Part shown: positions 13,355 to 21,706 of the stretch, piece after piece
Layout: every line of letters begins with the position of its first letter
Position numbering within the stretch: position 1 is the stretch's first letter
Source of the DNA: Streptomyces sp. TS71-3
GTDB taxonomy: Bacteria; Actinomycetota; Actinomycetes; Streptomycetales; Streptomycetaceae
DNA: 64,000 nucleotides
Direction: 5' to 3'
NCBI RefSeq assembly: GCF_018327685.1
Contig: NZ_BNEL01000001.1
Location: forward strand, 1,984,001-2,048,000
Position numbers and translations under genes: made by a program
The notes under the pieces: model-generated
What the model was told of the DNA's origin: nothing
Database searches by the model: none
Seen by the model: only the letters and a program-made list of their open reading frames with translations

Positions 13355-13930
13355 ATGAGCGCCGAAGCGCAGGCAGGGTCGAGCGCACGGCTCGGCCGTA
13401 TGCGCCGATCGTTCCGAGGGTGGCGCGGGCAGCGACCATTCTGGGGTGGTCTGCTGACGCTGCTGGGCGGCATCCCGATCGCGTACATTCCGTATGCCAA
13501 CTTCACGCTCGGCACGATGACGATCAGGATGGCGACCACCGCGGGCGCCGGTTCCCTGATCATCGGCGTGCTGCTCGTGGTGCTCGGTCTGACGATGTGG
13601 TACCAGAAGCACTCGCGGGTGTTCGCCGGTGTCGCGGCGATCCTGCTCGGTCTGGTCTCGCTGGTCGTCTCCAACTTCGGTGGCTTCTTCTTCGGCTTCC
13701 TGCTCGCCCTCGTCGGCGGCGCACTCGGCATCTCCTGGGCGGAAGGCAGCGCGTCGGCCCAGGGTGCGAAGGATGATGACTCGAAGCCGGAGGACTTCCC
13801 GGCGAACGACGACCGTCCCGCCCCGCCCCCGGCAGTCGCCGGCGCCACTTACTCGGTGAGCGGTGAGCCGGGCGACCTGTTTGGAAACAACCGGCCCAAG
13901 GGGACGAACGGGAGGCACCGTGCGGGCTGA
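13355..13930 (+). CDS. DUF6114 membrane protein
   Basis: A 191-residue integral membrane protein with four hydrophobic segments between about residues 28 and 130 ('PFWGGLLTLLGGIPIAYIPY', 'GAGSLIIGVLLVVLGLTMWY', 'VFAGVAAILLGLVSLVVSNFG', 'FFFGFLLALVGGALGISWAEG'). A hydrophilic, Pro/Asp-rich cytoplasmic or external tail of about 55 residues follows. ATG 13355 has GAGGAGCTG upstream. It overlaps the next gene by 11 bp. It matches the DUF6114 family and travels with DUF6230. Function unknown; the pattern suggests a membrane partner for the two secreted neighbours. Confidence 0.86.
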   Translation: MSAEAQAGSSARLGRMRRSFRGWRGQRPFWGGLLTLLGGIPIAYIPYANFTLGTMTIRMATTAGAGSLIIGVLLVVLGLTMWYQKHSRVFAGVAAILLGLVSLVVSNFGGFFFGFLLALVGGALGISWAEGSASAQGAKDDDSKPEDFPANDDRPAPPPAVAGATYSVSGEPGDLFGNNRPKGTNGRHRAG

Positions 13931-15182
13931 CGAGGCGCACCACGAGGAATCCGCGGGTGACACCCGGGAGAGAGCCACGGGTCGCCATGCAGCAAGGCGG
14001 CATGCCGCTCCCAGGAAAGCCCTGTTCACCAGGTTGCAGATGCCGGCGGGCAAGGCGTTCGCCCTCGCGGCGATGCCGACCGCCGTCCTCATGGGCATGG
14101 GCCTGACCCCGACCTTCGCCGCGGCCAAGGGGCTGCCGAAGAACCCGGCCTCCGACGGGCACTGCGTCAGCCAGCCTGACGAGGTCCCCGACGACGGCAG
14201 CAAGAAGGCGGACGACGGCAAGACCACGGACGGCAAGGGCCTCTTCGACCAGAAGCCCGGTGCCTCCGACTCGGACGGCAAGAGCGACCCCTCGGCGAGC
14301 CCGTCTCCGTCCGCGTCGGCCACACCGTCCGGTTCGACGAAGTCCGCGCCCTCCGGGGACACCAAGGACGACTCGCCTGCCCCGTCGGCGTCGAAGAGCT
14401 CGGGTGGCCTGCTGGGCGACCTCGGCGACAGCCTCGGGAACGTGCTGTCGGGCGGCCAGGGCAAGTCGACGTCGTCCGACGCCGGGACCTCCACTCCGAC
14501 TCCGTCGGCCAGCCAGAGCGGCAAGAGCTCGGACTCGCTGGTGGACAAGGTCGTGGGTTCCGCCACGGACACCGCCGGCAAGGTCGGTGACACGACCAAG
14601 AAGGTCACGGACGGCGTCAAGGACACCGCGGGCAAGGCGGCTTCGCCGTCTCCGTCCACCGGTGACCTGCTGGGCCAGTCGAAGGGCGAGGACGGCAGCC
14701 CCTCGTACCCCTGCGTGGTGGAGAAGAAGACCGCCGGCAAGGACGAGACGCCGCCGGTGCCGATTCCCAACCAGCCGTGGAACCTTCAGGCCAGTTCGCT
14801 TCTCCTGAAGGGTCTGAACTACGCGGGAGTCGTCAACCTCACGACGCCCGACGGCCACACCAAGCAGGTCCTGAAGTTCACCGCGGACGACGGCGTCGAC
14901 ATCGGCGACCTGCACCAGACCGTGGCGGGCCAGGGGGGCAAGACGTACCACGTCCAGGCCGCCTCCGGCTCGACGTCCACGATCCGTGGGGGTCGGGTGA
15001 CGATGTACACGGAGAGCCTGTCGGGGAACCTGTTCGGTCTCATCCCGATCGTCTTCGACGCGGAGCACCCGCCGCCGCTGAACATTCCGGTCGCGTACTT
15101 CACCAACGTGAAGATCGTCCAGGCCGGCCAGTTCGGCGGGAACCTGACGGTTCCGGGTCTGCACCAGTACCTCACGGGCTGA
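13920..15182 (+). CDS. Secreted low-complexity Ser/Pro/Lys-rich protein
   Basis: A 420-residue protein that I do not recognise beyond its operon. GTG 13920 is preceded by GGGAGG and lies inside the DUF6114 gene. Residues 1-35 are Arg/His-rich, then a signal-type segment 'AFALAAMPTAVLMGMGLTPTFAAAKG' (about 44-70). The middle (about 90-270) is a disordered linker of Asp, Ser, Lys, Pro and Thr with short repeats such as 'GDTTKKVTDGVKDTAGKA'. The C-terminal 150 residues look folded and beta-rich ('LLLKGLNYAGVVNLTTPDGHTKQVLKF', 'GQGGKTYHVQAASGSTSTIRGG'). It is probably an envelope or cell-wall-spanning protein working with DUF6230/DUF6114. Confidence 0.78.
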   Translation: MRADEAHHEESAGDTRERATGRHAARRHAAPRKALFTRLQMPAGKAFALAAMPTAVLMGMGLTPTFAAAKGLPKNPASDGHCVSQPDEVPDDGSKKADDGKTTDGKGLFDQKPGASDSDGKSDPSASPSPSASATPSGSTKSAPSGDTKDDSPAPSASKSSGGLLGDLGDSLGNVLSGGQGKSTSSDAGTSTPTPSASQSGKSSDSLVDKVVGSATDTAGKVGDTTKKVTDGVKDTAGKAASPSPSTGDLLGQSKGEDGSPSYPCVVEKKTAGKDETPPVPIPNQPWNLQASSLLLKGLNYAGVVNLTTPDGHTKQVLKFTADDGVDIGDLHQTVAGQGGKTYHVQAASGSTSTIRGGRVTMYTESLSGNLFGLIPIVFDAEHPPPLNIPVAYFTNVKIVQAGQFGGNLTVPGLHQYLTG

Positions 15183-15225
15183 CCCGCTGCCTGGGTTCAC
15201 CAGAGCGTTCCGGGAGCCGCACATA

Positions 15226-15270
15226 AACCGTGGCCCGCACCCTTCCGGGGGTGCGGGCCACGGTTGTTTT
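15226..15270 (+). terminator. Strong intrinsic terminator
   Basis: A perfect 15-bp stem (15226-15240 with 15251-15265), 10-base loop, then GTTTT. It closes the DUF6230/DUF6114 operon and isolates it from the lanthipeptide genes. Confidence 0.92.
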
Positions 15271-15382
15271 CCGCCCCGTGTGCGCGTCCGCTCCGGTCAC
15301 CTCGCGTATCCGGTCGTGGACAGTGCTGACCTGCCGGAGGAATATCCGATAAATCATCGCTTGGAAGTATGAGTCATTGGGT

Positions 15383-15407
15383 AATGAGTGAAGCCGCTTC
15401 ATTCATT
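15383..15407. promoter_or_regulatory. Inverted repeat upstream of the lanthipeptide precursor
   Basis: AATGAGTGAAG (15383-15393), CCG, CTTCATTCATT (15397-15407): 11-bp arms with one G/T mismatch, in a stretch far richer in A+T than its surroundings (about 15340-15610). It could be an operator for the lan genes. Confidence 0.45.
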
Positions 15408-15549
15408 GAAATCTCGCGCTGACTTTTCCGGGGGTAATTTCGGATTGTGGTCGATTTGAATTCGTGCTGCCGTTGAGAAGAAAAGAGAGCCCGTCAGATT
15501 TGGGAGGTGGTCGTGGTGTGCGGCGTCCGCGTTTGCTATGTTGAATCTC

Positions 15550-15572
15550 GGCTGAATTGAATTAATTCAGCC
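15550..15572. promoter_or_regulatory. Dyad just upstream of the precursor gene
   Basis: GGCTGAATT (15550-15558) pairs with AATTCAGCC (15564-15572) across GAATT, 36 bp before the precursor start. A -10-like TATGTT lies near 15537. Operator or 5' leader hairpin; the two cannot be separated by reading. Confidence 0.5.
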
Positions 15573-15607
15573 TCGAAGAAAGTCGGAGAGCGAAAGGTGG
15601 AAAGTAC

Positions 15608-15751
15608 ATGAATGTCAACGAGGTAACCGAGGCATTCGAGCTCGACGTGGTCGAGATCGCCGAAGACGGGGACGCCATGGAGACGCCGAACGCGTCGATG
15701 TGCTCGGCGACGATCGCCACCGCCCCCAGCAACCCGTGCGACTGCATCTGA
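15608..15751 (+). CDS. Class I lanthipeptide precursor (FxLD-type leader)
   Basis: A 47-residue precursor peptide directly upstream of lanB. The leader is acidic, 'MNVNEVTEAFELDVVEIAED', and contains an FELD box (residues 10-13), the dehydratase recognition element of class I lanthipeptides and the hallmark of the FxLD family. The core is the C-terminal 20 or so residues, from about Thr26: it holds Cys32, Cys44 and Cys46 and Thr26, Ser30, Ser33, Thr35, Thr38 and Ser41, ending 'NPCDCI'. Up to three lanthionine or methyllanthionine rings are possible. AAAGGTGG precedes ATG 15608. No double-Gly or obvious protease site is seen, so the cleavage point is unknown. An automatic caller could miss it for size. 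Confidence 0.88.
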   Translation: MNVNEVTEAFELDVVEIAEDGDAMETPNASMCSATIATAPSNPCDCI

Positions 15752-15771
15752 CCCGCTGACGGGTACGGAGG

Positions 15772-15797
15772 CGGCGGGCGGAGCGCTCCGCCCGCCG
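15772..15797 (+). terminator. Hairpin between precursor and lanB (probable attenuator)
   Basis: A perfect 26-bp palindrome (15772-15797) followed by TTT lies between the precursor stop and the lanB start. In RiPP operons such a partial terminator keeps precursor mRNA in excess over enzyme mRNA. Confidence 0.8.
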
Positions 15798-15818
15798 TTT
15801 CCTTCCAAGGACGAGAAA

Positions 15819-18800
15819 GTGGTGAGCACGCTGCCGAAGGACACCTCTTTGACCACTGCTTTCGCCTGTTCGGACGTGGTCCTGCTCCGTGCCGCGGTGC
15901 GAGAGGCGCACCCCGGTTCCCAGCCCGCGACTGACGAGGATGCCGACTACCTTCGTGCCGCGGCGAAAGACCCCCTGCTGCGTGAGGCCCTGTCGATCTC
16001 CAGTCCGTCCCTCATCCGCACCCTCGACGACGTGTGCGCCGGCCGTATTGCCTCGCCCAAGCGGATACGCCGGGCCGTGCGCGCCGTCAGTCGTTACCGG
16101 CTGCGCATGTCGAGCCGTGCGACACCGTTCGGGTTGATGGCGGGGGTGTCGACCGCGCATTTTGGTCCGCACCCCCGAGTGCGGTGGGGCGAGGCCCATG
16201 TCAAATGTGCCCGGGTGGATTTGGAGTGGTTCGGCGGAGTCCTCTCGGCCCTGGAGAGCGACGAGGCTGTCCTTCGGAAGCTCCGGGTGGTCGTAAATAA
16301 TCTCTGTTTCGTGCGTGGTGACCGCGTCATCAATCCGTACGTTCCGCAGGCGGGGAAGGGTGAGACCCTCACCCGGGAGGTCTCGGTCAGGCTCACCAGC
16401 GCGGTTCGGGAGATATGGGACCGCGCCCGGTTCCCCCTCGGATGCACGGATCTGGTCGATGCGCTGGCGGACGCCTTCCCCGCTGCCGGCGGGGATCTCA
16501 TCATGGCCTCGGTGGCGAGACTCGTGCGGGCCGGTGTCCTGGTGACGGAGCTGCGGGCGCCGCTGGACGACACCGACCCCCTGGAAACGCTCCTGTCACG
16601 GCTGGACGGCTCGGACGGCGCGTTCACCGCACGGACCGGCGAGGTGCTCGCCGAACTCCGCGAGGTGCGCCGCGAACTGGCCGCCTACGCGCGGACTCCG
16701 CTCGGCGAGCCCGGCCCCGTACTGGACAGGGTGACGGATCGTATGCGGCGGGTCCAGCCGGCCGACACTCCGGTGCAGGTGGACCTGCGTCTCGACGTCG
16801 ACGTCCAGCTCCCGGACATCGTGCGCGGCGAGGTGGAGCAGGCCGCCGAGGCGTTGTGGGTCCTGTCGTCAGGACACCCGGGGCCCGGCTTCCTCACGGA
16901 GTTCCACGAGGACTTCATCGAACGGTACGGAGTGGGCCGGGCGGTTCCGCTGCGGGACGCCGTCGACCCGGACATCGGCCTGGCGGCCCCTGCGGGGTAC
17001 CGGTTCCCGCGCAGCCCCCGCACACTCCGCGGAAAGCAGGTGGCGGACTCCGAACACGACGACCTGCTCCTCTCCTTGGCGCAGGGGGCGTCGATCGCGG
17101 GAGAACGGGAGATCGTTCTCGACGATTCCGTCCTCGGCGAAATCCGTGCCGAGGCCGGGACACCGCCGCCGTCCATGGACATGCTGGCCCACCTCATCTC
17201 CGATTCGACCTCGGCCCTGGCCGCGGGCGACTTCAGGCTGGTGGTGGTCGGCACGCAGACACTCGCCGGGGCCTTCGCCGGCCGGTTCGCCCCGCTCCTC
17301 GGACGGGACGGCGACCGGATAGGGGAGATGGTTCGCGGCCTGCCCACGTCCGCCCCCCAGGCCACACGCGCCCGGTTGTTCTTTCCGCCGCACCGGCCAC
17401 GTGCGGGGAACGTGGCACGCGTGCCCGTCTGGGCGGACCAGCGGATCGTGCTGGGCTCCTTCGCCGACACCGGCCGGCCCGACACCCTGGGACTCCGGGA
17501 TCTCGCGGTCGTGGCCACGCCCCGGCGGCTCGCGGTCGTGTCGCTGAGGACGGGACGTGAGGTGGTGCCGACCGTGCCCAGCACCATGGCCGTCGATCGG
17601 CAGGCGCCCAACGCGGGACGCCTCCTCCACGAGATCGTGCGGAGCGGGGAGCCGGCCTGGCCGGGGTGGCGCTGGGGGGCGGCTGAGTCGCTGCCCTATC
17701 TGCCCCGGGTCCGGGTCGGCCGTACCGTCCTGTCCTCCGCCCGTTGGAAGCCCGACGCGGCCCTGAGGGACCCGGCCGCCGGACCCGGGGAATGGCGCCG
17801 GTCGCTGAAGGAGTGGCGAGTGCGCTGGGGTGTTCCCGACCGGGTGCAACTCGTCGAGAACGATCAGCGGATCAGCCTGGACCTGACCTCCACAGGGCAC
17901 CAGGACCTGCTGCGCAACGGACTGAGCCGCGGGCGGCCGGTCCAGCTCGTCGAACTGCCGGCCGGCGGGAAGTGCGGCACCGGGTGGCTGTCAGCGTCGG
18001 GCGGCACGGCCCGAGGGCGCACCAACGAGCTGGCTTTCTCCCTGGTGCGCCGCGAGGACACGGCAGCGCGTGGGGCGCCGCACGGAGAGAACGGGCCCCT
18101 CTCGCCTCCCGTCACCGGCGCCGCCAGAGCGGTCCACCTGTCCGGGCGCGCGGTGTTCCCGCCGGGCTCCTCGTGGCTGTACGCGAAGTTGTACTGCTCC
18201 TCGGAGCGGCAGGACGAGATCATCGCGCGGGCTCTCGCCGATCTGCTGGCGAAACTGCCGGACCTCCAGCGCTGGTTCTACATCCGCTACCAGGATCCCG
18301 ACGCCCACCTGCGGCTGCGGTTCCACGGTGATCCCGCGGAACTCGCCGGCGGTGTGCTGCCCCTCCTCGGCGACTGGGCGAGTGGCCTGTCCGCCTCGGG
18401 CATGGCCGGCCGTCTCGTCCTGGACACCTACGATCCGGAGTGGGAGCGCTACGGCGGCCCGGAGGCCATGAGCTGCGCGGAGGAGTTCTTCCGCGCGGAC
18501 AGTGCGGCGTGTGTCGGGCAACTCCGCCTTGAGCCGTCGTTGCCGCCGGTGATGAGCCGGCGGGTGCTGGCGGCGGCCAACTGCGCCGACCTAGCCGTTC
18601 GGCTCCTGGGGGATCGGGAGGCCGCCGGGGCGCTGTTCGACTGCGCCGGCACCTCCGGCGGCCACGAGGCGAGGGCCCTGCTGCACGGTGAGGCGAAAGG
18701 GCTCATCGACCCGGCCGGTGGCTGGGAGCGCCTGCGCGCCCTGCCGTCCGGGCCCGAACTGGCCGCCGTCTGGGACGAGCGGGCAGAGGCGCTGAACGCG

Positions 18801-18977
18801 TACGCCCAGCGGCTGCGGGACCTGAACGGAGCGCTCCCCCGATCGGTGCTCCCCTCTCTGCTGCACATGCACCACAACCGGCTCTGCGGCATCGACCGGG
18901 CCAACGAGGCGGCGGTCACCGCACTCGCGGCCGCCGCGGTCGACGCGCGGCAGAGGCGAGCGGGTCGGCCGCGATGA
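15819..18977 (+). CDS. lanB: Class I lanthipeptide dehydratase, full-length LanB
   Basis: A 1052-residue cytoplasmic dehydratase. The N-terminal domain (to about 780) would transfer glutamate from Glu-tRNA to Ser/Thr of the precursor; it includes 'RMSSRATPFGLMAGVS' near residue 96-111. The C-terminal SpaB_C elimination domain (about 787-1050) shows 'PPGSSWLYAKLYCS', 'WFYIRYQDPDAHLRLRF' and 'LDTYDPEWERYGG'. Both halves are fused, as in NisB, unlike split thiopeptide enzymes. The start is GTG 15819 (or 15822), with AAGGACGAG upstream. Its stop overlaps the lanC start (ATGA), so the two enzymes are made together. The generic symbol lanB is used, as no named compound is recognised. Confidence 0.95.
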   Translation: MVSTLPKDTSLTTAFACSDVVLLRAAVREAHPGSQPATDEDADYLRAAAKDPLLREALSISSPSLIRTLDDVCAGRIASPKRIRRAVRAVSRYRLRMSSRATPFGLMAGVSTAHFGPHPRVRWGEAHVKCARVDLEWFGGVLSALESDEAVLRKLRVVVNNLCFVRGDRVINPYVPQAGKGETLTREVSVRLTSAVREIWDRARFPLGCTDLVDALADAFPAAGGDLIMASVARLVRAGVLVTELRAPLDDTDPLETLLSRLDGSDGAFTARTGEVLAELREVRRELAAYARTPLGEPGPVLDRVTDRMRRVQPADTPVQVDLRLDVDVQLPDIVRGEVEQAAEALWVLSSGHPGPGFLTEFHEDFIERYGVGRAVPLRDAVDPDIGLAAPAGYRFPRSPRTLRGKQVADSEHDDLLLSLAQGASIAGEREIVLDDSVLGEIRAEAGTPPPSMDMLAHLISDSTSALAAGDFRLVVVGTQTLAGAFAGRFAPLLGRDGDRIGEMVRGLPTSAPQATRARLFFPPHRPRAGNVARVPVWADQRIVLGSFADTGRPDTLGLRDLAVVATPRRLAVVSLRTGREVVPTVPSTMAVDRQAPNAGRLLHEIVRSGEPAWPGWRWGAAESLPYLPRVRVGRTVLSSARWKPDAALRDPAAGPGEWRRSLKEWRVRWGVPDRVQLVENDQRISLDLTSTGHQDLLRNGLSRGRPVQLVELPAGGKCGTGWLSASGGTARGRTNELAFSLVRREDTAARGAPHGENGPLSPPVTGAARAVHLSGRAVFPPGSSWLYAKLYCSSERQDEIIARALADLLAKLPDLQRWFYIRYQDPDAHLRLRFHGDPAELAGGVLPLLGDWASGLSASGMAGRLVLDTYDPEWERYGGPEAMSCAEEFFRADSAACVGQLRLEPSLPPVMSRRVLAAANCADLAVRLLGDREAAGALFDCAGTSGGHEARALLHGEAKGLIDPAGGWERLRALPSGPELAAVWDERAEALNAYAQRLRDLNGALPRSVLPSLLHMHHNRLCGIDRANEAAVTALAAAAVDARQRRAGRPR

Positions 18978-20245
18978 CGCCCGCCATGCCGCCATGGGAC
19001 CGGGCCGCGCAGTACGTGGAGGAAGTCTCCGAGCGCTTCTCGGACATCGAGGCCACCACCCGGATCTGGCAGGCAGGCGACTCGTGCGTGCCCTCCAGCC
19101 TCGACCGGGGCTGTGCGGGAATGTCCCTGCTCTACGCGGAGCTGGCCCACCGGGACACGGCCCACCGGGCGCTGGCCCACGCCTGGCTCACCGCAGCGGC
19201 GCGGTCGCGCCAGGAGCCGTCGACGGCCGGGATCTTCCGTGGCGCAGCCGCTCTGTCCTTCGCGGCTCACTGCGCGGCGGGGCACGGCGGCCATTACGCC
19301 CGCACCCTTGCCGGCCTCGACGAGCGCCTCGCCGCCATGGCGCGTGCCTGGGCCGAGCGTGAGGCGCGCCGGGTCGCGCTCGGAGAGGCGTGTGTGACCA
19401 TCCATGCCTACGACGCGATCACCGGGCTGGCCGGACTGGGCGGCCACCTCGTCGCACGTGGGCTCACCGGCGCCGCCGCTCCCGTGCTGGAGGCCGTGGT
19501 CGCGCTGACCGACCCCATCGAGGTGTCCGGCGTTCGCCTTCCCGGCTGGTGGGTGGCACAGGACACGGCATCCTACGCCCCGACCGCGGTCAGGGAGGGC
19601 CACGCCAACCTCGGCATGGCCCACGGCGTCGCCGGTCTCCTGGCGCTCCTCTCCCTGGCCTGGCGCGACGGCTCACGGGTGGCGGGACAGCGGGAGGCCG
19701 CCACCGTGCTCGCCGGGTACCTGCTCGAACGGCGCAGGGACGACGGCGACGGTGTCTGGTGGCCCCCCATGCTCGGCCTGGACGGCGCCGAGGCCGCGCG
19801 GCCCAGGCCCTCATGGTGCTACGGGACTCCGGGAGTCGCCCGCGCCCTGTATCTGGCGGGCGCCGCCTTCGACGTCGCCGAATGGCGCGACGCCGCCGTC
19901 CGGGCCCTGCGGTCGGTGCTCCGCCCCTCCTCCACGCAGCCGCCCCTGAACGGACCGGGCCTGTGCCACGGATGGGCGGGCCTGTTGCAGATCACCTGGA
20001 GGACGGCTCAGGAAAGCTCCGACGACGAGCTTGCGGCACGGCTGCCGTGGATCGCCGCACGGCTCCTCGACGCGGCACCGGGCGCGGTGTGCGGCACCGT
20101 CCCGGGCGCCGCACGCCCCGGGTATGTTCCCGACGACCCGTTCGGGTTCCTCACCGGGGCTGCCGGGGCCGCCCTCGCGCTGCACACCTGCGCCACCGGC
20201 ACTCAGCCCGCCACGCCCTGGGAGCGCGCGCTCCTGATCGCTTGA
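18974..20245 (+). CDS. lanC: Lanthionine synthetase (cyclase), LanC
   Basis: A 423-residue zinc enzyme that adds precursor cysteine thiols to dehydroalanine/dehydrobutyrine to close the rings. The zinc ligands are all present: Cys282 in 'PSWCYGTPG', and Cys331-His332 in 'GLCHGWAGL'. The catalytic histidine lies in 'GMAHGVAGLLALL' (His217). The length and seven-fold helical repeats fit free-standing class I cyclases. The start at 18974 overlaps the lanB stop by four bases. With three precursor cysteines it would close up to three rings. Confidence 0.94.
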   Translation: MTPAMPPWDRAAQYVEEVSERFSDIEATTRIWQAGDSCVPSSLDRGCAGMSLLYAELAHRDTAHRALAHAWLTAAARSRQEPSTAGIFRGAAALSFAAHCAAGHGGHYARTLAGLDERLAAMARAWAEREARRVALGEACVTIHAYDAITGLAGLGGHLVARGLTGAAAPVLEAVVALTDPIEVSGVRLPGWWVAQDTASYAPTAVREGHANLGMAHGVAGLLALLSLAWRDGSRVAGQREAATVLAGYLLERRRDDGDGVWWPPMLGLDGAEAARPRPSWCYGTPGVARALYLAGAAFDVAEWRDAAVRALRSVLRPSSTQPPLNGPGLCHGWAGLLQITWRTAQESSDDELAARLPWIAARLLDAAPGAVCGTVPGAARPGYVPDDPFGFLTGAAGAALALHTCATGTQPATPWERALLIA

Positions 20246-20291
20246 CGGGGGTTTCGCGGCGGGCGGGCGGCACACTCATGAGAAGGCAACG

Positions 20292-20309
20292 ATGACGAGG
20301 CAACGATGA
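20292..20309 (+). other. Five-codon open frame abutting the JmjC gene start
   Basis: ATG ACG AGG CAA CGA TGA at 20292-20309 encodes MTRQR. Its TGA overlaps the ATG of the JmjC gene (ATGA). The segment AAGGCAACGATGAC is repeated immediately as GAGGCAACGATGAC, so the ribosome site plus start codon has been duplicated in tandem. Confidence 0.55.
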
Positions 20310-21217
20310 CATGGAAAGCGGTCCCCGGTTGGGTGGGCTCGGCGCAGGCGTTCCTGGCGGACGACTGGGGGCGGGCGCCCAGGGTGTTCCGCGGCTTGAG
20401 GCCCGAGACGCCGATCACCCTCGGGGACGTGGACCGGGCCATCCGACACAGGATGCTACGACGACCGCACGTCGAGATGGTCAGGGGAACCGACGAGATC
20501 CCCGAGAGTTCCTACACGACCTCCCGGCGCATGACCGGAAGCACGGTACCCGCCTTCGCCGACGGTGCCGCCATCGCCCGCCTGCTGAGGCAGGGGAGCA
20601 CGCTGCTGCTGCGCAACGTGGAGCACTGGCACGCCCCGACGGAGCGGTTGACACGGGATTTCGAGACGGATCTCCGGCGCCCGGTCGAGGCGTTCTTCTT
20701 CGCCACACCAGCCGGCGCACAGGGGCTCGTCACTCACCGGGACGACGCCGACGTCCTGCTGCTCCAGATCAGCGGCAGCAAGAGGTGGACCGTGTACCCG
20801 GGGCCCGGGGACGGCAACTGGCGGCCGGGCCCTGCCGAGGAGGTGGGGGCCGCCGTCCTGGAGGAGACGGTACGCGCGGGTGACGTCCTCTACATCCCGC
20901 GTGGGTTCGCACACACCGCGTCGGGGGAGGAGGGGCTCTCCACCCACCTCTCCCTGACCGTTCGAGAGGTGGGCACGCAGGAACTCTACGCCGCCCTCCA
21001 GCGCACGATCATGGACGGTCTGGCGATCGAAGCCCGCCCGCTGGGCGAGCCGGAGCTGCTGGAGACCGCTGAGCAGCTACTGGACCGGATCCGCGCGGTT
21101 GTCCCGCGGCTGACGGCGGCGGACGTCCTCAGCGCGGCGCGAGGAGCCAGGACCCCCGAGCGAGGACGCCCGCCGTCCGACGGGGACGACCTCAGCACAC
21201 TGCTGACCACCGGATGA
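20306..21217 (+). CDS. JmjC/cupin-like 2-oxoglutarate-Fe(II) oxygenase of the lanthipeptide locus
   Basis: A 303-residue cupin_4/JmjC-type oxygenase. The double-stranded beta-helix carries the iron triad His144-X-Asp146 in 'THRDDADVLLLQISGSKRW' and His203 in 'AGDVLYIPRGFAHTASG'; 'KRWTVY' is typical of the ribosomal-oxygenase and tRNA-hydroxylase branch. A winged-helix-like C-terminus follows. Such enzymes hydroxylate protein side chains using 2-oxoglutarate and O2. It follows lanC by 60 bp on the same strand, so the precursor is the likely substrate; Asp45, Asn28, Asn42 and the prolines are candidates. ATG 20306 has GAGG 5 bases upstream. The role is inference; the fold is well supported. Confidence 0.86.
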   Translation: MTWKAVPGWVGSAQAFLADDWGRAPRVFRGLRPETPITLGDVDRAIRHRMLRRPHVEMVRGTDEIPESSYTTSRRMTGSTVPAFADGAAIARLLRQGSTLLLRNVEHWHAPTERLTRDFETDLRRPVEAFFFATPAGAQGLVTHRDDADVLLLQISGSKRWTVYPGPGDGNWRPGPAEEVGAAVLEETVRAGDVLYIPRGFAHTASGEEGLSTHLSLTVREVGTQELYAALQRTIMDGLAIEARPLGEPELLETAEQLLDRIRAVVPRLTAADVLSAARGARTPERGRPPSDGDDLSTLLTTG

Positions 21218-21306
21218 GCTGCGGCGCGTGCCCGCGAGGAGGTTGCCAGGACCTCACCCTCCGAAGCGGGCTGTTCCCGTCGTGGCCGGGCCTCCGGCGG
21301 GTGGGC

Positions 21307-21706
21307 GGTTGCTCGCGCGGTTCCCCGCGCCCCTAGGTCCTGTCTGACAATTCCCGCCGGGCCCGCGACGTCTGGCACCGCACCTCGCCGCGTTGTCGGG
21401 CACGCCCACGTACGCCCAGTACGAGGGCGACCCTCCGCCTTGCGATGCACGGCACCAGACGCCGCGGGCTGATCCGCCGCGAATTGCCAGACAGGCCCTA
21501 GAAGGCGGGGCTCCGCCCCGATCAGGGGCGCGGGGAACTGCGCGCTCAGCAACAGGAGTGGCGAGCGTCGTCACCGAGCCGAGGGGGCGGTCTCGGTCGT
21601 TTCCGGACCACCGGCCGGTAGATGGTTGCTCGCTCCCCCACTGCCTCAAGGGCGTGGGAGGTACCCCCATCCCCGCGCCCCTGACGGGGCGCCGCGCACC
21701 GTCGGA
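21307..21706. repeat. Composite GC-rich repeats between JmjC and pyk
   Basis: The 489-bp convergent gap holds a left-facing repeat copy (about 21311-21332, TCGCGCGGTTCCCCGCGCCCC), its inner module and right-facing partner (21506-21545), and a further degenerate copy (about 21590-21690) with 'TCCGGACCACCGGCCGG'. The first is split by the element at 21336-21498 and the last by a small hairpin insert at 21633-21660. No gene is seen. Confidence 0.85.
21336..21498. mobile_element. 163-bp MITE-like element with TA target duplication
   Basis: The ends are imperfect terminal inverted repeats of about 45 bp: GGTCCTGTCTGACAATTC at 21336 onward against the reverse complement of the right end, GGGCCTGTCTGGCAATTC. 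TA flanks both sides (21334-21335 and 21499-21500). It has no transposase. It splits a copy of the intergenic repeat, and uninterrupted copies at 2404-2460 and 9612-9660 show what the empty site looks like, with a single TA in the 2404 copy. TA targets are typical of IS630/Tc1-mariner elements, so it would be moved in trans. Confidence 0.85.

Follow-up and report, generated by a model that had tools for sequence, protein, structure and literature searches.

A class I lanthipeptide operon of Streptomyces with a JmjC oxygenase, and the co-occurrence of HRD-type JmjC proteins with a C-terminal isoleucine

Introduction

BipG, a JmjC ornithine gamma-hydroxylase of biphenomycin biosynthesis, is the characterised precedent for an enzyme of this family in the ribosomally synthesized and post-translationally modified peptides (RiPPs), according to the accessible portion of PMC12707348. 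Bacterial JmjC homologues (PF08007) in RiPP-like contexts are also in print, as the available text of PMC12710340 indicates. No lanthipeptide with a characterised JmjC enzyme was found in the accessible open literature, in which BipG is the one characterised RiPP JmjC enzyme, and no rule concerning a C-terminal isoleucine is stated in the accessible parts of that literature, including PMC12707348, PMC12710340, PMC7268733, PMC11450843 and PMC12352619. The present work concerns a lanthipeptide locus in 64,000 nucleotides of Streptomyces sp. TS71-3 (contig NZ_BNEL01000001.1, positions 1,984,001 to 2,048,000), hereafter the window, in whose numbering all coordinates are given. Its four genes encode a precursor peptide (LanA), a dehydratase (LanB), a cyclase (LanC) and a JmjC protein.

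The locus is read here as a minimal class I lanthipeptide operon, the JmjC enzyme of which would belong to a leader-independent group that recognises a free C-terminal Ile and most likely hydroxylates it; we put the probability of this reading at roughly two in three. The last residue of the precursor is Ile, and this residue tracks the JmjC protein across peptide classes. That feature was unremarked in the first-pass annotation, which was made from the letters of the DNA, and it is the main result beyond the original finding.

JmjC proteins and the last residue of the precursor

The features of the window on which the comparison turns are the following.
15746 to 15748, plus strand: codon of the C-terminal Ile47 of the precursor, where the JmjC enzyme is proposed to act (Ile is the last residue in 49 of the 52 precursors from HRD loci).
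20735 to 20743, plus strand: HRD motif of the JmjC enzyme (H144-R145-D146), in which an Arg separates two Fe ligands (51-row alignment).
20912 to 20914, plus strand: His203, which completes the iron site of the JmjC enzyme as its third ligand (the same in all 51 rows of the alignment).

The iron site has the form HxD...H, in which H144, D146 and H203 are invariant, and R145 is found in 44 of the 51 aligned homologues; the seven rows lacking it are among the most distant. Sixty-eight JmjC loci were read (L032-L051, L122-L161, L061, L068, L074, L079, L218-L220 and the window), and L058 was dropped because it belongs to the same genome as L032. Sixty of these loci came from a JmjC search of the genomes of the family, down to about E 1e-33, with at least three places in that range (G213:C391, G199:C1 and one of G064:C14) and weaker matches left unread, and Streptomycetaceae are over-represented in the sample. 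The search for precursors used leader motifs, a hidden Markov model (HMM) of the leader or similarity between loci. No rule on the last residue entered the counted searches, and the count of GG-leader loci rests on a pattern that is neutral to it.

At least one JmjC copy carries HRD at 66 of the 68 loci, and HWD is found at the other two. A RiPP precursor was found at 54 loci. Fifty-two of these are HRD loci (15 lanthipeptide, 18 P450, 5 and 2 GG-leader and 12 signal-like), where 49 precursors end in Ile and three in Met; at both HWD loci (L061 and L068) the precursor ends in Cys. The neutral-pattern search of the lanthipeptide, P450 and GG loci gave 36 precursors, all 36 ending in Ile, one being the duplicate L058. 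Three Micromonosporaceae loci were fetched after the Ile rule had been formed, and all three precursors end in Ile, which is the sole fresh test of the rule.

The control set consisted of 54 class I loci, 37 without a JmjC gene found within 9 kb and 17 with one. An FxLD candidate was found at 29 of the 37 JmjC-less loci, none of which ends in Ile, and eight had no candidate. Among the 17 loci with JmjC, 15 are of the HRD type with a precursor ending in Ile, and the other two are L061 and L068 with HWD, the precursor of L061 having come from a separate reading of that locus. Fisher's test for 15/15 versus 0/29 gives p 4e-12, a value that ignores kinship. The background frequency was estimated from script-called genes, 7 of 397 of which end in Ile; eight core types at this background would give 9e-15, a rough yardstick, since one type is mixed Ile/Met and the types were gathered and not randomly drawn. 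A control of this kind could not be made for the P450 leaders, because the leader search matched 18 of 297 genomes once each, all in loci already seen with JmjC. Together, HRD-type JmjC proteins appear to be linked to the C-terminal Ile of precursors across peptide classes, and the link is strong by co-occurrence.

The same association is seen within the LanB clade of the window. In its 11 rows Ile goes with JmjC: the tails CKTTI and CDCI occur with it, and TGCIC and SRCC without it. No JmjC gene was seen at L055, L056, L118, L120 and L121, the precursors of which end in TGCIC or SRCC. L054 and L117, with tails TGCIC and SRCCD, are cut by contig ends. The precursor of L119 ends in SRCR; its LanB matches in four pieces, and L119 lies outside the tree.

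L117, L119 and L120 have SWPFSC or SWPYSC cores followed by a longer tail ending in SRC plus C, R or CD, and their LanB is near that of the window. No JmjC gene was seen near these three loci, where L117 is cut by the contig end and the LanB of L119 is in four pieces.

JmjC loci with other precursor types

JmjC homologues adjoin eight RiPP core types (four lanthipeptide types, a, b, c, and d with e) carried on four leader kinds, namely FxLD, P450-type, GG and signal-like. Type a comprises 18 P450-JmjC loci (L039-L041, L043, L044, L046-L051, L147, L148 and L151-L155) with a 27-aa precursor of the form MK..KA..KKF..DEDLA..W ending in HVI or HLI. PF00067 was matched by both of the P450s tested. 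These loci resemble atropopeptide-type RiPPs to which an oxygenase has been added.

Type b comprises five GG-leader loci (L034, L038, L042, L146 and L220) with very short cores of about 8-10 aa and the tails KACI, TCVI, HCVI, SCVI and GCI. A condensation-domain protein is encoded nearby, as is a C39-type ABC transporter wherever the sequence extends far enough; PF03412, PF00005 and PF00668 were checked in L034, and the other loci were assigned by similarity. An AMP-binding protein lies beside JmjC in 3 of 3 loci tested. In L038 and L146 the precursor lies 7 kb from JmjC, beside the transporter. Type b is a possible RiPP type with enzymes like those of nonribosomal peptide synthetases (NRPS). 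Type c comprises two GG-leader loci with the tails LEVI and ELVI.

Type d comprises ten tandem-JmjC loci (L124, L127, L131, L134-L136, L145 and L156-L158), in which two JmjC genes follow one to three copies of a signal-like open reading frame (ORF) ending in YPDV or HPDV plus I (seven) or M (three). Known leader patterns gave no match at these loci, and their precursors were found by similarity clustering, with the cluster chosen by eye. Type e comprises two Micromonosporaceae loci (L218 and L219) with signal-like precursors ending in EPYYI, and an AMP-binding gene follows JmjC in L218. The leaders of types d and e resemble each other (local score 65 versus at most 42 in 200 shuffles), and they are therefore counted as one leader kind.

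A rival reading takes jmjC for a housekeeping gene that encodes a ribosomal oxygenase of the YcfD/NO66 type and stands here by chance. The AlphaFold model has a confident JmjC_2 fold (predicted local distance difference test score 94.5), and the closest solved folds are NO66, the nearest, MINA53 and YcfD, as such an origin would predict. Against it, the 54 precursors among 68 loci place the family beside RiPP genes, only 98 of 297 genomes of the family have a JmjC match at 1e-20, and the JmjC loci group by locus type in the tree, so that a housekeeping role is scarcely credible. The class-wide JmjC search (60 of 296 genomes) gave mainly weak and distant matches outside the genus. A single-sequence JmjC scan of genome contigs gave no match, while the LanB alignment search did.

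Proposed mechanism

In the proposed pathway, LanB would bind the FELD leader and dehydrate Ser and Thr of the core, and LanC would add the three Cys to give up to three thioether rings, both roles being those expected of their families. Tailoring of the peptide would be the task of the JmjC protein as an Fe(II)/2-oxoglutarate oxygenase. Because the leaders are of four kinds, a shared JmjC enzyme is unlikely to read the leader; the feature common to the precursors is their last residue. The enzyme may thus recognise the free C-terminal Ile. Arg145, next to the iron, is a conjectural contact that could hold the C-terminal carboxylate. The most likely reaction would be hydroxylation of the terminal Ile (+16 Da), with both the site and the preference for hydroxylation over other oxidations being predicted. 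Hydroxylation is common in the JmjC family. The free isoleucine dioxygenase also oxidises Met, which recalls the occurrence of both Ile and Met at JmjC loci. Leader removal and export would depend on enzymes encoded elsewhere. On these grounds the JmjC clade would recognise, and probably oxidise, the C-terminal Ile of RiPP precursors whatever their leader.

The enzyme might use the C-terminal Ile in another way, by alpha-hydroxylation with loss of the Ile to leave a C-terminal amide, or by oxidative decarboxylation. A fixed last residue after variable ones would suit a sacrificial residue, the AMP-binding gene beside JmjC in 4 of 4 relatives tested hints at C-terminal chemistry there, and other C-terminal oxidations occur in peptide biosynthesis (accessible text of PMC12871766 and PMC13060819). 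However, the JmjC_2 relatives in the match lists are named side-chain hydroxylases or lysine demethylases, and BipG is itself a side-chain hydroxylase, so this chemistry is regarded as somewhat unlikely. An internal residue (Asp45, Asn or Pro) could instead be hydroxylated, with the terminal Ile acting as a docking signal only, since the linkage is one of co-occurrence and does not give the reaction site. The tails CDCI, CKTTI, RPYCI, LHVI, HCVI, LEVI, PDVI and PYYI have no internal residue in common, which makes an internal site a distinctly unlikely choice next to hydroxylation of the terminal Ile.

Several observations weigh against a role of the C-terminal Ile as substrate of the JmjC enzyme. 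No clear precursor was found at 14 of the 68 loci (L035, L036, L037, L045, L149, L128, L137, L138, L139, L142, L144, L159, L160 and L161); L035 and L036 are NRPS loci, and L149 begins at its transporter and could have a precursor beyond its edge. The HRD locus L128 has a GG-leader ORF as its only candidate (10167, plus strand, E 0.3, 3 kb away), which ends in RYLL and is a possible exception with Leu. The three Met-ending precursors all belong to tandem loci, where the ORF directly before the JmjC pair was taken as precursor by eye, and at four tandem loci the other strand carries, 2.0-2.4 kb away, a second shared ORF that resembles a secreted peptide (…TSWG.C.LPLC.P) and ends in Ser, Asn or Tyr. 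At L079 a second, unlikely candidate ends in Arg, and the Cys-rich one was counted. Some partner JmjC copies lack HRD (HSD in L145, other motifs in L160 and L161). In 3 of the 29 controls (L054, L084 and L117) the contig ends in or just after lanB or lanC. The loci of one type are kin, so the evidence amounts to about eight independent core types and not 52 cases. The Ile could also serve another shared function.

A wider proposal is that the JmjC clade supplies one interchangeable tailoring enzyme to four or more RiPP architectures: LanB/LanC; P450; a C39 transporter accompanied by condensation and AMP-binding proteins; and loci that contain hardly more than JmjC. The enzyme would ignore the leader, bind the carboxylate of the free C-terminal Ile with the Arg of HRD and install a C-terminal modification, the lanthipeptide of the window would be one such product, and a C-terminal Ile with an HRD-type JmjC would serve as a rule for finding unannotated precursors. 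We consider the arguments for and against this proposal to be evenly balanced.

The locus and its four genes

The remaining features of the window are given below.
15608 to 15751, plus strand: lanA precursor, 47 aa (translation; HMM of relatives; single match in its own genome).
15635 to 15646, plus strand: FELD leader box, residues 10-13 (F-E-L-D invariant in nine aligned precursors).
15683 to 15748, plus strand: probable core, residues 26-47 (3 Cys, 6 Ser/Thr; predicted boundary).
15819 to 18977, plus strand: lanB, full-length dehydratase, 1052 aa (PF04738 and PF14028; 49-51% identity to two relatives).
18974 to 20245, plus strand: lanC cyclase, 423 aa, with a 4-bp overlap with lanB (PF05147; Cys282 and Cys331-His332 invariant).
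20306 to 21217, plus strand: jmjC, Fe(II)/2-oxoglutarate oxygenase of the JmjC_2 family, 303 aa (PF08007).
15183 to 21706, no strand: segment from a 439-aa gene to pyk in which the operon lies, interpreted as an insertion (6524 bp here versus 84-347 bp in nine relatives).

The precursor frame translates as MNVNEVTEAFELDVVEIAEDGDAMETPNASMCSATIATAPSNPCDCI. Translation bears out the peptide described in the first-pass annotation, with its FELD box and, among the final 22 residues, 3 Cys and 6 Ser/Thr. The computed mass of the unmodified peptide is 2166.905 Da for residues 26-47 and 1854.762 Da for residues 29-47. A chance ORF was rejected as an explanation of this frame, because among 298 window ORFs of 35-150 aa it alone combines an FxLD-like box with a tail containing 3 or more Cys and 5 or more Ser/Thr (6 of 298 pass on the tail when the box is dropped), and because an HMM of eight relatives, built without the window peptide, ranks it first of 1022 window frames (E 2e-4; runner-up 0.27). 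In NCBIfam, a library that probably includes an FxLD-type precursor model, the precursor had no match at E 1. No second copy of the core was found in a single-sequence, word-based search of 5.8 billion proteins, in which the precursor matched only itself. A profile of the precursor and the precursors of two relatives gave nine matches, namely those three and six more (P0124-P0129), JmjC status being established for a minority of these six. In the other eight precursors the core reads ATGSWPF[YFNSH]C[KP]T(T)I, behind a leader similar to that of the window.

In L071 (8145-8772, minus strand; Pseudonocardia), three similar FxLD precursors stand in a row upstream of the LanB gene.

All four genes run in the same direction, their frames are open and none contains a TTA codon. 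The Pfam matches of LanB cover nearly the full profiles (PF04738 at 51-698, E 5e-189; PF14028 at 786-1040, E 4e-54), and LanB thus has both the glutamylation and the elimination domain. LanC matches PF05147 with E 7e-46, and its C282, C331 and H332, which we take to be zinc ligands, are invariant in three aligned rows (the window and two relatives). The JmjC protein matches PF08007 (JmjC_2) with E 1e-19 and 70.6 bits, where the gathering cut-off is 22. The 9.79-Mb genome has one match for the precursor and one JmjC match at 1e-20. Coordinates and Pfam domains agree that the precursor stands directly before full-length lanB, lanC and the JmjC gene. No methyltransferase gene was recognised by Pfam around the locus: jmjC is the sole recognised gene between lanC and pyk, and the upstream neighbours are not methyltransferases. 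This agrees with the earlier view that an oxygenase takes the place of the methyltransferase. Domains, gene order and relatives all support the assignment of the locus, judged by its genes, to the class I lanthipeptides, with an oxygenase in addition.

DUF6230, DUF6114 and a 439-aa gene without a Pfam match (13863-15182) lie upstream of the operon, and pyk, ackA, pta and pfk lie downstream. A search of 20 genomes found the 439-aa gene in 13 besides that of the window, of which 12 belong to the same genus. In the short stretches fetched, pyk lies near it in 9 of the 13 genomes, all of the same genus, with a gap of 84-347 bp versus 6524 bp in the window, and the stretch bearing the operon is accordingly read as an insertion between the two genes.

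Relatives of the locus

The order LanA-LanB-LanC-JmjC is kept in three relatives: Streptomyces toxytricini (L032, the same genome as L058), Streptomyces goshikiensis (L074) and L033, of the same family. Their proteins are 47-56% identical to those of the window, the leader is similar and the core is different (...GSWPF[Y/F]CKTTI). The core of the window lanthipeptide is not found elsewhere in these searches; beside lanB in relatives the leader is conserved and the core is not, so the lack of conservation that the first-pass annotation named as a ground against the locus does not apply.

No protease, transporter or regulator gene was seen between the flanking genes, where some overlapping ORFs were not put to Pfam. 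To that extent the earlier description of the window locus stands, but the lack of a transporter does not extend to the locus type: an ABC transporter follows jmjC in all three same-order relatives, so its absence is a trait of the window locus. A decayed cluster that has lost its transporter and makes no product would account for this difference. Four open frames and conserved catalytic residues speak against decay, which is considered quite improbable.

JmjC also occurs in other LANTHIPEPTIDE loci, so the window locus is not unique in the pairing noted in the first-pass annotation. Ten Streptomycetaceae loci have the order JmjC-LanB-LanC (LanC was not reached in L141), with a precursor in the gap, on the opposite strand, ending in RP[WYFL]CI. 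The order LanB-LanC-JmjC with a JmjC protein of a distant group was found in three actinobacteria, namely Asanoa siamensis (L079, ...NMCI), Streptosporangium carneum (L061, ...CIC) and Actinomadura macra (L068, ...CLC); the iron motif is HRD in L079 and HWD in L061 and L068. In the JmjC tree, the window and the CKTTI rows group with two NRPS-locus rows (99/97), apart from the RPxCI rows and from L079, L061 and L068. This grouping suggests that JmjC joined LanB/LanC more than once, or was lost repeatedly.

Significance and comparison with known systems

If the link holds, lanthipeptides, P450 peptides and GG-leader peptides would all be modified at the C terminus by one enzyme family that needs no leader. 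Leader-independent, residue-specific tools are wanted in peptide engineering, and C-terminal capping can alter stability and activity. The last residue would also provide a simple test for picking true precursors among tiny ORFs. For a group of actinobacterial JmjC proteins, some of them named in databases after ribosomal oxygenases, the link would suggest a substrate.

The window locus resembles class I lanthipeptide loci (LanB/LanC, FxLD leader) in its full-length LanB, its LanC, its FELD box and a core with Cys, Ser and Thr. It differs in the added JmjC oxygenase, in the lack of a recognised protease, transporter or regulator and in a core of which no second copy was found. The 18 P450-JmjC loci are like the atropopeptide-like P450 RiPPs by their P450 and by their 27-aa precursor ending in HVI or HLI; a term search of the main text of two atropopeptide papers gave no match for JmjC, cupin or such a tail. 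In the accessible text of PMC12710340, the JmjC proteins belong to the same Pfam family and lie near RiPP genes, with no substrate or C-terminal rule given. BipG, as far as the available part of PMC12707348 describes it, is likewise a JmjC oxygenase that tailors a ribosomal precursor, but it acts on an internal ornithine made from Arg; the two are likened by description and not by sequence. The ribosomal oxygenases NO66, MINA53 and YcfD differ in another way: the aligned motif of NO66 is HYD, as opposed to HRD, and the present JmjC genes sit in RiPP loci.

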